The translations under genes were made by a program, and so were the position numbers. Below are positions 11,740-45,210 of a stretch of 64,000 bases of DNA, in pieces (within the stretch, counting starts at the first letter, position 1; each line of letters begins with the position of its first letter). The notes under the pieces are model-generated. The model was not told the origin of the DNA. It worked only from the letters and a program-made list of their open reading frames with translations, and searched no databases. Source of the DNA: Candidatus Kapaibacterium sp. (GTDB lineage Bacteria > Bacteroidota > Ignavibacteria > Kapaibacteriales > WFXC01); assembly GCA_015490805.1 (NCBI GenBank), contig WFXC01000016.1:1-64000 (forward strand). The letters are read 5' to 3'.

Positions 11740-14361
11740 CTACGATGGTAGTGCTTTATTGGTGGTGGTTTGCTCGGCCAATTGGAACACGCGCAGCGAT
11801 TGCTGCAGGTCATCGGCTAATTGAGAGAGGTTGCGGGCAGCCTCTGCTAGCTCTGCTATCCCTTTTGCGCTCTCTTCAATGACCTGCGACATTGCTGTTA
11901 TATTCCGCGACATTTCTTCACTGGTTGCTGACTCCTGCTCAACGGCTGCCACGATCTGTGATAGCATCTGCTCAACGGTCTCCGAAGATTTTACGATTTC
12001 CTCCAACGCCTGCTGCGCTCTGGTTGTTCGTCCCACCCCCTCATCCACGGTATTTTGAACTTCCTCCATAGCAGAAACGGTATCAGCAGTTGATTGCTGC
12101 AACTGCTGAATAATATCTGCGATTTCTTTTGCCGATTCGCCCGTGCGCTCCGCCAGCTTGCGAACTTCATCTGCCACAACTGCAAATCCGCGACCGGCAT
12201 CACCTGCTCGTGCTGCTTCAATCGCAGCGTTGAGTGCTAACAAATTTGTCTGATCGGCAATTTCGGTAATCACTGCTGTGATTGTCTGGATCCGCTCTGC
12301 TGCCTGCTGCAGCGTTCCCAACTGCTCCACTGCTTTTTGAACTTGTCCTGCAATCGCTTGCATCTGCCCTAACACTTCCTGCAGTACATCCTTCCCGCTT
12401 CCAGCTACTGCCGCTGCCTGCCGTGATGCCTCCCCAACTTGATGGACATTTCGTGAGGTATCTGCAATCGTATGGCTCATTTGTTCTACTGCTGCGGCGA
12501 TCTGTGCACTTTGTGCCGACTGTTCCTGTGCCGCCGTTGCCAGTTGCTCCGTCGTTGCTCCCATCTGCGCCGCGGCTGAAGCGACGTGCTCAGCGGTAGT
12601 TCGCAACTTACCAATCAACGCATTCCACGACTTCAACAAAGACTGAATATCCCCTTGTAATCGCTGAATTACCGCTGACTCCTTGCCGCTGACCTGAACT
12701 ACTGCACTAAGATTCCCCCTCGCCATTTCGTGCAGAACAACACCAATCAACTCTGCATCTTCCAGAAGCTGCTGGTTGAATTTCGATAGCTCCTGCTGCA
12801 TCAAATAGGCGCCGACGATTCCTCCAAGGATATCGGCAAAGGCTTCCAGAATATATCGGTCATCCTCTCCGAATAGTCGATCGCCGGAGGTTACAACCAG
12901 CGAACCGATCTGTTTCTGGTTGGCTTCCAGCGTCACTTCAATGGTATCCCCTCGACGGCTGCCCGATCCGACCGATTGCAATGCCAGAGAAGTTTCCTGA
13001 TGCTGCCCATCGCTCTGGAAGCGGAATTGGGGTTGTCCCTGGTCATCAAGCAGCACGAAGGTTGCTCCGGACCCATTGACGATATCGGTTGCCCCAGCCA
13101 CTATGGTGTTGCCAAGCTGTTCCAGCGATCGCCCGCTGCTGGCTTCTCCAGCGATACGATCCAGCCACCGCAATGTTTTCAGCCGCTTGGTCAGCCGCTC
13201 GCCGACTTCCACGATCGATCGTGCCAACTCTCCTACCTCATTGCGCAAATGCGCTACCACCTCCAGTTCCTCTTTGCGAACCTCGTCTTCCTGCAGAGAC
13301 CGGAAAGCTTCCACAAGGGCTGCAATATTGGTCACCACTGTCTTTCCGGTCATCAGACTGATCATAACCAGAATCAACACCAGCACAAGAGACACTCCCA
13401 AAGCGGAATACACAGTCGCCACACTCCAGGAATATTCTCCCTCAATGTCAGCGACAATATATGCTGTTGCTGTATCGCCCCACCGATAAAACTGGTCGAT
13501 CACCCGCGTAGCCTGCTGGAAAAACCGCTGGGGATCACCAGCAATAGTTGATGACTCTACAAAGGTACGCTCGATGTCCTGTAACAACTGTCTTGCCTGA
13601 GGAAGTAGTTGCTGCAAACTGCTTAGAAGATCGCTCACTCGCGTCTGATGGAACTGGCTCTTGACTACTTGTTCAATGCGCTGTTGCTGAAGCCGTGCAG
13701 CCTGAACTAACTGTTTCAATTGCTCCCGTTCATCAGGTCGAAGTGTATCGATGTCGCGGGCAAGATAGCCACTGCCCAGACCACGCAACTGCCCCAGTGC
13801 TTCCGTCAGTTGCGGAAGCCGGCGATACAACAGCAATATCAATGAACTCATCGCTGGATCAAACTTCGCCTGGTGCAGTAGAACATTCTCCAACTCCAGT
13901 GTTGCTTCAACCAAGTTTGAGTGGATCTCGAAAGATTCGAATGCTGAATGTTCCCGCCACTCAGCTCGTAACTGCTGCCACCGTGTCGCTAGCTCCTCCA
14001 CTAATGCTGCAACTTCTGCAACTTCCGCCAGTACTGGTGTTTCGCCAACGTGTTGCCGCACGCGCTGCAACAGCGAATCGCAGCTACGCTCCACGTTGGT
14101 AATGCGCGTCTCCACCGCGGTATTTCCATTCAGATACTGGCTGGCCAATCCGCGGTGCAACTGCAACGCCCGCTGCAGATCTGCCAGCGGCACCAGAGTC
14201 CGAATCACCGACAGGTTATCCTTCGGCACCTGCAATGCTATGGAGCTGCTGAATACCACTGCGCCAAGGAGCACCACTGTAACCACAATAATCCCTGGCG
14301 TTAGCAAACGACGAAGTACCGTTCGCAGAGGTAATGCTGCAAGTCGTTGCGATACTCTCAT
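11740..14361 (-). CDS. Methyl-accepting chemotaxis protein
   Basis: The product is 873 aa from the ATG at 14361, which follows GGAGTGGAAGA; a GTG at 14376 would add five residues. TM1 is at about 20-45. The periplasmic helical region (about 50-310) carries two LxRGLxSxYL motifs ([19 protein letters not shown]) like nitrate/nitrite-sensing NIT domains. TM2 is near 320-340, then HAMP (about 340-395), a GAF-like domain (about 405-545), and a long MCP signalling domain with the hairpin-tip sequence [20 protein letters not shown]. It senses a periplasmic ligand and signals to CheA/CheW. No C-terminal CheR-binding pentapeptide is visible. Its ATG overlaps, as ATGA, the end of a G-tract leader frame (see 14358-14524). 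Confidence 0.93.
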
Positions 14362-14524
14362 TCTTCCACTCCCCACCGTTTATACAACTCTTCCACAGGT
14401 ATTCCCTCATCTCGAGCTTGGAGCATCCGGAAAATCCTGAAGAGCTGATTGGATGAGCCAACAACGGTGTGTCGTACAGGGAGCTTTATCGCCCCCCCCC
14501 CCGCAAAAATTTTCTTATTTTCAC
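14358..14524 (-). pseudogene. Short leader ORF overlapping the chemoreceptor start, frame broken at an 11-G tract
   Basis: A GTG at 14524 follows AAGGAGG (14533-14539) at ideal spacing and reads VKIRKFLRGGG into a run of 11 G. As sequenced, the frame then stops at TAA (14486-14488). If the run had 9 or 12 G, reading would continue as AIKLPVRHTVVGSSNQLF, then [26 protein letters not shown]. The stop TGA (14358-14360) would overlap the receptor ATG as ATGA, giving 55 codons and translational coupling. The last 30 residues resemble the first helices of a winged-helix DNA-binding domain, but this is too short to assign. The frame is also open upstream to an ATG at 14686, giving an alternative 109-aa form. 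It could be a phase-variable leader, a gene remnant or an assembly artefact. Confidence 0.45.
14492..14502. repeat. Homopolymer tract, 11 G on the minus strand
   Basis: Eleven consecutive C on the given strand. It and 45158-45168 are the only homopolymers this long that I found; other runs in genes are seven or fewer. Its length decides whether the chemoreceptor leader frame is open. Confidence 0.9.
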
Positions 14525-14539
14525 CAAGCTGTCCTCCTT

Positions 14540-15028
14540 ACTTCCTCTTCCCAATCCCTGTCCGTTCTTCTCAGTGATAGCCAACATACCACTTACATCC
14601 CAACTTCCATCGATCTTCCAAATCAACGTACCCCAATCAGAGAATATTGTACAGGATTCCTCCTTGAAGAAGTAGTTGTACAGCATACAATTTTATTAAC
14701 GGTACTAAAATCTCTAAACAACTGTTTGCAAAGCCATCACTCCCACAGTCACCCATAAAGCTCTGATGATCTCAGTGCAAAATCCCTTCGCGGTATTCGC
14801 TATCTTGCTTTATATCCTGCTAATTGACATCACGGAAACAATCACCCTTATACCCAACCTGAGGATAATGGAAATCCACGATCCTGTCCGCTTTTCGTAA
14901 CCAAGCCGAATGTAGATAGCGATGGGACAAAGGTAAGCATCTTACGATTGAAGGTTCCACCGTTATGGAAAGCTATCCACGGAACTCAATGCTCTTCTCT
15001 GTGAGTGTCCACGTTTTAGTGTGCATCT
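14540..15028. other. Gene-poor spacer upstream of the chemoreceptor leader
   Basis: Apart from the possible N-terminal extension of the leader ORF to an ATG at 14686, I see no convincing coding region. Open frames on either strand are short and of low-complexity composition. No tRNA-like fold or strong promoter consensus was recognised. Confidence 0.4.
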
Positions 15029-41866: not shown

Positions 41867-42895
41867 TCACAGCTCGAATGTTAACTGCCGCAAAATCCGT
41901 CCTTCGACCGAAACCTCATAGATGTAACAAGTAAAAAACCCCGGCGGAAACAGGGAGACCGCAAAGGTCGTATCACTGGTAAACCGCGGCACTGGATCCA
42001 TTGAATACATACACCACTGTTCTGCCGGATCAATCACATAATCTGGCTCCACTTTAGTTGAGGGATTTGCTAACACCCGATTGACATCCTTGATAATGAT
42101 GATCTTGCGTTCTCGATTAAGACCCGGTCCCCACATCAGCAAACTCCGCCCATTGGGTGCCCAGCTTGCCCTACCAGTTCCCCTCGGTAATCGTATCTCC
42201 ACTCCATCCAGCAAAAATCGCCGCTGACCGTTCTCATCCTCTACGACACCAAACCAGTGCTGATCGCCGGGACTCCACACCCGTCGCTGCGGCTTGCCTC
42301 GATACTTCTCCGGAAGCGGCAAAATCGTATCTTTCTGCAACCAGTACATCCGCTCTCCTGACAACACAAAATAATCCGCTCCGGGTCTGGAGGTCGCCAT
42401 CCAGTGCAGAAAGACACGATCTCCGGGACTTTCCGGGATCACCTTCTCCACTCGAACCGCCATACCACCCGAAAAAGCAATCACAAATGCATAGTCACGG
42501 AACCTTCCCTCTTGATCCATCGACTTGACCAATACCATCAGACGACGATGATCATACGGACACCATATTACCCCCTCTATTCCAGCGGAAGACTCTCCTT
42601 GCGGCAAATACGGTCGAGCTCCAAACTCGGAAACTTCGTAAGTAACCACGTTCATAATGCGCAATGGACTATCCTCCCGGACACTCCAGTAAGCTACCAT
42701 TACTCCATCCGGCGATGCTCCTATAACAATATGCCCCGATGGCGGTCGGATAATTCGGATTTCATCGTATCCCCATTCACACGGCGGTGGGGACGGCTGC
42801 ACGGGAACATCCTGACATCCGCCCCACCCACCACTCAGCAGCAAAAGCAGCATCCAGACAATGCTACCAGACAAATACCGGCTGTGTGACCACAT
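41867..42895 (-). CDS. TolB/WD40-like propeller lipoprotein, paralogue
   Basis: The product is 342 aa from the ATG at 42895 (MWSHSRYLSGSIVWMLLLLL, then SGGWGGC, lipid Cys near 27). A later ATG at 42853 would leave too short a signal, and the longest frame reaches back to 43021. The chosen start overlaps the subtilase 3' end by 32 bases. Strand motifs include IGASPDGVMVAYWS, VWSPGDQHWFGVV and ASWAPNGRSLLMWG. It is paralogous to the following gene. Coupling to the subtilase means its translation may also depend on the G-tract state upstream. Confidence 0.8.
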   Translation of the reverse strand: MWSHSRYLSGSIVWMLLLLLSGGWGGCQDVPVQPSPPPCEWGYDEIRIIRPPSGHIVIGASPDGVMVAYWSVREDSPLRIMNVVTYEVSEFGARPYLPQGESSAGIEGVIWCPYDHRRLMVLVKSMDQEGRFRDYAFVIAFSGGMAVRVEKVIPESPGDRVFLHWMATSRPGADYFVLSGERMYWLQKDTILPLPEKYRGKPQRRVWSPGDQHWFGVVEDENGQRRFLLDGVEIRLPRGTGRASWAPNGRSLLMWGPGLNRERKIIIIKDVNRVLANPSTKVEPDYVIDPAEQWCMYSMDPVPRFTSDTTFAVSLFPPGFFTCYIYEVSVEGRILRQLTFEL

Positions 42896-45210
42896 CCGCT
42901 CCGATCCGCAGTTGGACAAAATAAACCCCACGGGAAAGACGGGGAATCGGAAACTCCTGCGGTTCTCCTCCCCAGTGCAACATATCAGATCCAGCATACA
43001 ACATCTTGCCCTGCGCATCAAAAATCCGTACCGTCATTCTCTTACTCCGCAGAACCGATGGAGTTACCCACACTATGAGCTTCTGATCCTGCACCACACA
43101 CCGGAATGTCCACCGACGCCCCTCAGCCATGTGCCGGGTCTGCCCATCCCGGTCTTCTACATCGGTTACCTTCTCTCTTCCAAAGACTGAAATATGAAAT
43201 CCAAGTTTCTTTGGATAGATCGAGGGCTGTTGTTGCTTACCCATTGGCTTTAGCTTATATTGCAAATTAGCAACTCGAACCTGGAAAGAATGGCTGTGAT
43301 AAATTCCATCTACCCTCCCATTGCCTCCTCGCCCAGAGATTATATACGTAGTCCCAACTTGAGAACAGGGATTCTTTCTTGAAGCAAGTGCCCATCCACT
43401 GGGTGCTCCTTCACCGCTCCGTCCCCACACGAACAGGGGATTTGCACTATCCACTACCCACCGATGCGGAGGCAAATGAATCGTACCATAGACCCATCGG
43501 CGCTGTGCCTCATACAACCCGTTTTCCAGCGGCTTTGCTCGACCGCCCGCATTAAATACTGGCAACAAAAAAGTCGGACTCCATTCACCAACGGAGTCGA
43601 TCGCCACTGAATCAACAGAAAAATGGCTTACCCTATATCCTCGCTGTAGCATATCAAACAACGTATCTGCCCGGATATGTCCCCATCCCGTCGTATCGTC
43701 ATAAAAGCGAGACATCCGATCCTCACAAGCAGCCTTGATCATCCCTTCGTAATCCTCCACCACCAGATCCCACTGGTGCTCCCGGGCTTCAGAACGCAAC
43801 AGTGCAATCAGACCACTTACGTGGGGCGCTGCCGCAGAGGTTCCTGCAAAATACCCAAATCCTCCTCCATACTGAGTAGTGTATACGACAGCATCTGGAC
43901 CTGAGTAATCTCCTCCCGGAGCCAGGAAATCCATTCCCCCTCCATACGAAGAATACCAAATTAAATTTCTGGAACTATCAGATCCTCCTACGCTGGACAC
44001 CCACCATTCGTCGTAGCACGCGGGAAAAACTATGAGAGAATCGCCAGAATTCCCTCTTGAAGCAACGAAACTGACTCCGTTTTCAAATGCATACAGTATC
44101 GCTTCCCGCAGAACTTGGCTGTAAGTCGCAGTTCCCCAACTGGCATTAATGATATGTACCCCATATCCGTGTTTCGGACTACGAGTACTAGCTTCTTCAA
44201 TAGCAGCAACTACATAGTTCAACAACAAACGGTCCGAGTTCAATGAATCAGCAACGCGAAAACCATATAGTGCACACCCTATTCCCTCATCACTATAGTT
44301 GTTGTCCGGTCCCCATCCACCAGCAATCCCGGCAACTCCCTGCTCCACACATCCCCTGTTGGTCAACGCTCCAACAATCCCAGCTACGGGAGTTCCGTGA
44401 TAAGACATTATGCTGAAATCTGGTGTGTTTTCAGTCCAATTCCAGCCACCGGCAACCTTGTATCCCCATCCCTTTCCACCACCCAAATCGCAATGCTGGT
44501 ACCATATTCCATTATCGATGATTCCGACTTTGATCGCGTAATCTCCTACCTCAAAGTCCCACGCCCGTGTTACTCCCGTCATCTTCCGATGCAGGCTGAT
44601 CTGCAAGGGGAAATTCGGATCTCGAGAAGGTGTCCGGTCCAAAAGCTCCAGATAGTAATTAGGCTCCACTATCTGTACCGCATCCCAATGATTGATCAAG
44701 ATTTGTATTGCCGCATTAACAACATCAATGGTATCGCTTCGGAATTCCAACATCATCCACAAATAACTAGTACATCGGATCGTATCGCCATAGCGCGTGA
44801 TGGAAATCGTATCAGAACATGGATTGGCAACTGACACTCGCCGCAAGGAATCAACCCCCAGATTTTCAAGCGTCACTCGAAGTGCTGAATCCCGGATGAT
44901 GGAGGCAACGGAAAACTGCTGCGATAACAAATGCTGGCGCAGCGACGGCGGCAACATCAAAACCCCTTCACCCGGCGCTCCCTCCGTGATCGGAGCTGGA
45001 TACTCATAGCACAGTGAGTCAAGGTACAAAGCGTGGGGATAAAACCGCACGATGAGTTCTCCCGGTGCGTAAGCCGTATCCGGTGGCGGAAAATTGTAAT
45101 CGATGGTATCTCCACGGGTATCAAGGAAAACGGGTAACTGGAGTTGAGCAACTATATCCCCCCCCCCCAAACAGGAAGAGAAAGAACAAAAACAGGCGCA
45201 GTTTCTTCAT
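42864..45210 (-). CDS. T9SS-sorted subtilisin-family protease, frame interrupted at an 11-G tract
   Basis: The ATG at 45210 encodes MKKLRLFLFFLFLF, then a run of 11 G. As sequenced this shifts out of frame and stops within about 13 codons. With 10 or 13 G it reads on as GGGDIVAQLQLPVF, a perfect signal peptide, into the 768-codon frame, giving 781 aa. The catalytic triad is intact (corrected numbering): Asp ~232 in GIIDNG, His ~271 in SYHGTPVAG, Ser ~458 in GTSAAAPHVSG, with the oxyanion Asn in INASWG. The C-terminal about 80 residues (VRIFDAQGKMLYAG, FPIPRLSRGVYFVQLRIG) are a T9SS type A sorting domain. A TTG at 45170 could start a form lacking the signal. Phase variation or a homopolymer assembly error are the two explanations. 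Confidence 0.88.
45158..45168. repeat. Homopolymer tract, 11 G on the minus strand, in protease signal peptide
   Basis: Eleven C on the given strand, at codons 15-18 of the protease. Lengths of 10 or 13 would be in frame; 11 is not. Confidence 0.92.

Follow-up and report, generated by a model that had tools for sequence, protein, structure and literature searches.

In translational poly-G/C contingency genes, known from Campylobacter, Neisseria and Bordetella, a homopolymer early in an ORF turns the gene on or off through its reading frame, and the switched ORF is usually the effector itself. In operons, a 4-nt ATGA overlap of stop and start codons allows reinitiation, so that two cistrons can be translationally coupled. 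The chemoreceptor gene tlpB of Helicobacter pylori has a poly-G tract of variable length in its mRNA leader, which is read by the sRNA RepG and whose length sets the receptor level (PMC8295292). Here we describe a chemoreceptor locus that resembles all of these in part, and compare it with a paralogous locus in the same genus.

The DNA analyzed (the window) is a 64,000-nucleotide stretch from an uncultured Kapabacteria-like bacterium, whose genome (G000) comprises 2.67 Mb in 48 contigs. The comparison set consisted of G000 and two other species of the genus (G001 and G002, Candidatus Kapaibacterium sp. MAGs), the contigs of which have very low k-mer coverage (1.8-2.7, from the record titles). 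Contigs are labeled by genome, G000:C27 being contig C27 of G000, and genome-wide G-tract counts were obtained by pattern searches of G000. We identified a receptor gene with an MCPsignal domain (PF00015, E 6e-47) and, directly upstream of it, a short leader frame that runs into a G tract (Table 1).

Table 1. Features of the leader and receptor locus in the window
Feature	Position	Strand	Remarks
Run of 11 G within the leader frame	14492..14502	-	reads as 11 C on the plus strand
Leader ORF at the sequenced tract length, starting at GTG 14524-14522 behind the SD; 12 codons plus TAA	14486..14524	-	
Shine-Dalgarno (SD) AAGGAGG, spacer to the GTG 8 nt	14533..14539	-	direct reading
Longer form of the leader frame, from ATG 14686; 66 aa as sequenced	14486..14686	-	
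Post-tract candidate coupling frame, 43 open codons, TGA over the receptor ATG (ATGA)	14358..14491	-	
Methyl-accepting chemotaxis receptor, 873 aa from ATG 14361	11740..14361	-	PF00015

The leader as sequenced reads GTG AAA ATA AGA AAA TTT TTG CGG GGG GGG GGG CGA TAA, and is closed by the TAA two codons past the tract. A tract of 9 or 12 G would instead let the frame run for 55 codons from the GTG, or 109 from ATG 14686, and the TGA of this frame (14360-14358) would overlap the receptor ATG (14361) as ATGA. Before the tract, the 63-codon frame from ATG 14686 is the sole long open frame. As in contingency loci, a long homopolymer lies within an ORF and its length sets the frame. The initial annotation had reported the 11-G tract behind an SD-preceded GTG with an early stop, and the 55-codon frame (109 aa in the longer form) that 9 or 12 G would restore; re-reading of the sequence bore out these coordinates and counts. 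It had also called this the second 11-G tract, and the runs of at least 8 G within the 64 kb are indeed two, 14492-14502 and 45158-45168. Plus-strand ORFs across the C tract at 14492-14502 were considered and found no support.

The other tract of the window (45158-45168, minus strand) falls within the signal-peptide region of a secreted subtilase (gene 42864-45170; Peptidase_S8, E 6e-32), which also has a weak match to a sorting tail. In none of the three species is the tract in frame, and its length varies within the genus (11, 11, and 9 G). Paralogs of this subtilase that are 67-70% identical have no tract and an intact frame. Elsewhere in G000, a 10-G tract at G000:C45:27493-27502 (L047:1994-2003) falls at the C-terminus of an apparent sensor kinase (GLGLAIALLLLDFHRGRLEV...), to which it would give alternative C-termini. 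An 11-G tract on the plus strand at G000:C44:39287-39297 (L046:2288-2298) has nearby stops in all plus frames.

The likeness to tlpB is a poly-G tract in the leader of a chemotaxis receptor gene. Given this precedent, the statement in the initial annotation that such a layout is not known from elsewhere was too strong, although in tlpB it is an sRNA, not a reading frame, that responds to the tract (PMC8295292). The tract of tlpB sits in a 5' UTR and acts in a graded manner, whereas here it sits in an ORF that ends in an ATGA overlap and has a conserved counterpart at a paralogous locus; moreover, Helicobacter belongs to an unrelated phylum. The subtilase tract at 45158 follows the usual pattern of contingency genes, in which the effector itself is switched. 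At the receptor, by contrast, the ORF that would be switched is a small leader, and the gene that follows is the likely target. Compared with ordinary ATGA coupling, the upstream cistron carries a putatively mutable tract, which would make the coupling heritable and reversible. The separate parts (poly-G contingency, ATGA coupling, and poly-G at a chemoreceptor leader) are already known. No description of all three together, with a mutable tract placed in a conserved leader ORF that is coupled to a receptor, was found in the open-access papers searched, nor did these yield any report of phase variation in Kapabacteria.

We evaluated whether the geometry of the window locus could have arisen by chance. 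In 9% of dinucleotide shuffles no stop interrupts the ATGA frame between the tract and the receptor start (P 0.09), and the geometry of this locus alone is only mildly unusual. Internal tracts of at least 10 G number five in the 2.67 Mb of G000, against 2-7 expected, and this genome shows no clear excess of long G tracts over chance. These figures, and the lack of the tract in G002 (below), fit a scenario in which an intergenic G run lies among frames that are open by chance, and the conserved 3' part is merely the translation-initiation region of the receptor. However, two of the five internal tracts of at least 10 G lie in the 150 bp that precede three homologous receptors, on the coding strand (P about 7e-8, for a set chosen after seeing the data). 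The initial annotation had argued that the geometry was unlikely by chance. For the single locus this holds only mildly; it is the recurrence that is improbable, and we consider the layout more than a coincidence because it recurs upstream of a paralogous receptor, not from the window geometry alone. Position-specific recurrence, together with the third-position bias and in-frame indels described below, makes chance or decay improbable as an explanation. In a third receptor group (C21), neither a tract nor a leader frame was seen.

The window locus was compared with the corresponding regions of the sister species. Beside the ortholog of the 1670-aa neighbor, G002 encodes a receptor that is 44% identical to the window receptor and has no tract; the locus is absent from G001. 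Against the leaders at the other loci, the window leader peptide shows no more similarity than shuffled sequences do (P 0.27-0.73), despite a look-alike E-x-[LW]-x-[KR]-R close to the end of each. Because the G002 receptor is tractless, G001 is without the locus and the leader peptides are not measurably similar, we interpret the window locus as either an independent case of the layout or one that has diverged greatly, and not as a conserved one. It appears to be a second, species-specific case that, judging from its geometry, is currently in an uncoupled state.

The paralogous receptor is encoded on G000:C27 and is 34% identical to the window receptor over the first 366 residues. Its start is preceded, about 145 bp upstream, by GGGGGGAGGGGGGGGGG, a G tract of the form 6G-A-10G. 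As in the window, there is one long open frame before the tract, followed by a frame that ends in the same ATGA overlap, and the leader is closed, in this case by a TAG directly after the tract. The C27 receptor is syntenic downstream with G002:C136 and G001:C192, with 88-90% DNA identity over 7.5 kb. The ATGA stop/start overlap typical of coupled pairs is present on all three of these contigs as well as in the window. On G002:C136 the tract is 14 G, a length that rests on very few reads from low-coverage MAG contigs, and no stop breaks the leader frame between the upstream ATG and the ATGA overlap. On the upstream side of the tract, the G002 flank matches G000:C6 and G001:C81. G000:C6 terminates in 19 G, G001:C81 stops about 35 bp short of the expected tract, and G001:C192 starts just past it. 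Given that these contigs end at the tract, assemblers failed there in two of the three genomes. Tract length at this locus appears to differ across the species, with 14 G in G002, 6G-A-10G on G000:C27, and a contig break in G001.

The last 207 bp of C27 (L037; G000:C27:50949-51155), upstream of the tract, have no match in the three genomes, and keep a 65-codon ATG frame into the tract. This end may be a chimera or an insertion, since it matches nothing in the genus while C6 carries the expected syntenic flank. The post-tract part of C27, which was used for the constraint tests, is unaffected by this problem. Over the likely leader ATG of the paralogous locus we found a 21-bp inverted repeat (L040:2326-2346, L064:81-101), which is a possible operator or hairpin. 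It reads TGAAGTGAT nnn ATCACTTCA in G002, has 7-bp arms in G000:C6 and is also present at the end of G001:C81.

Several features indicate that the leader of the paralogous locus looks read as protein, as judged from its conserved frame and amino-acid constraint. Before each of the three assembled tracts (the window, C27, and G002:C136) there is a single long open frame, of 63, 68, and 77 codons, compared with 4-18 codons in the other frames. After all three, the ATGA frame is open throughout (43, 48, and 46 codons). The last 37 codons of the post-tract peptide have a dN/dS of 0.16 between C27 and C136, with 5 amino-acid changes against 9.3 under random placement of the same substitutions (P 0.007). 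The two shifted frames of this pair show no constraint (P 0.86 and 1.0). The other two species pairs show the same direction more weakly (P 0.05 and 0.26). Across these 37 codons, 7, 5, and 12 variable columns fall at codon positions 1, 2, and 3, respectively, and on both flanks of the tract the species differ by indels of 3 and 6 nt, multiples of three. The constraint could reflect the importance of the peptide itself and not coupling. At no tract length could the leader fuse to the receptor, because stops interrupt the receptor frame shortly before its start.

The leader peptide is confined to the genus: among 123 genomes of the order, only its three species match. Three further matches (E 0.006-0.009) in other families look like chance. 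Comparison of the leader peptides with Pfam returned nothing above the cut-off.

The strongest rival to a switchable leader ORF coupled to the receptor is a role for the G tract as a length-tunable site for a C/U-rich sRNA, or as part of an RNA structure, with the ORF incidental, because this type of mechanism is documented for H. pylori tlpB, where leaders with 6 to 16 G have been studied (PMC8295292). As in that system, poly-G is found in the leader of a chemoreceptor gene, here in a predicted transcript. In folds of C27, a TTCCCC just past the tract can pair either with the tract or with the receptor SD (GGGGAA), and the window has a similar CTCCC. However, in G002 the post-tract element does not sequester the SD, and no Rfam family matched the leaders. 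SD pairing in the RNA folds differs between loci, and the folds were not used as evidence. The conserved frame speaks against a RepG-like role, which would also not lead one to expect the ATGA overlap, the amino-acid constraint, or the single open frame both before and after the tract; we regard this role as unlikely.

A second rival arises because most of the assembled tracts are out of frame (the window, C27, and the subtilase in all three species). This would be tolerable if transcriptional slippage or ribosomal frameshifting at the tract produced a functional small protein, in which case the tract would be a recoding site with a fixed product ratio and not a genetic switch. However, the assembled tract lengths differ between species (14 G versus 6G-A-10G at the paralogous locus, 11 versus 9 G in the subtilase), and the G002 leader is in frame without any recoding. 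We give recoding a low probability, slightly below that of an sRNA or RNA-structure role.

Our preferred interpretation, which we hold to be somewhat probable, is a contingency leader ORF that carries poly-G and is translationally coupled to the chemoreceptor, with slippage, reinitiation, and the change in receptor level predicted from the layout. The length of the tract in the small leader ORF would be changed by slipped-strand replication. At a length that aligns both halves, the whole leader would be translated and ribosomes would stop at the TGA over the receptor ATG. They could then reinitiate at that ATG, as the overlap geometry suggests, so that receptor translation would be raised and a small leader peptide made. 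At other lengths, translation of the leader would end at the tract or shortly past it, some 50-145 nt upstream, leaving the receptor to rely on its own start site. In G000, mutS is present, which rules out its absence as the cause of tract mutability; therefore no mutator state is implied.

The main evidence that this layout may be selected is the paralogous locus in three species. The initial annotation had expected a conserved leader frame in relatives and variation in tract length. At the paralogous locus, the leader frame is conserved in the three species, with constraint, and the tract has two assembled forms; neither was found at the window locus, which has a tractless counterpart in one sister species and none in the other.

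More tentatively, poly-G slippage in a dedicated, conserved leader may constitute a heritable and reversible coupling switch that would give clonal Kapabacteria cells different chemotactic sensitivities; the leader peptide may itself be a receptor-linked small protein. If true, the switch acts on a leader ORF via coupling, and not on the effector gene, and receptor level is predicted to depend on tract length with a period of three. This would represent a second, independent origin of chemoreceptor poly-G control after that of Helicobacter tlpB, by a different mechanism, and would mean that, in a little-studied and uncultured lineage of the Bacteroidota/Chlorobi group, mutable DNA generates diversity in chemotaxis.
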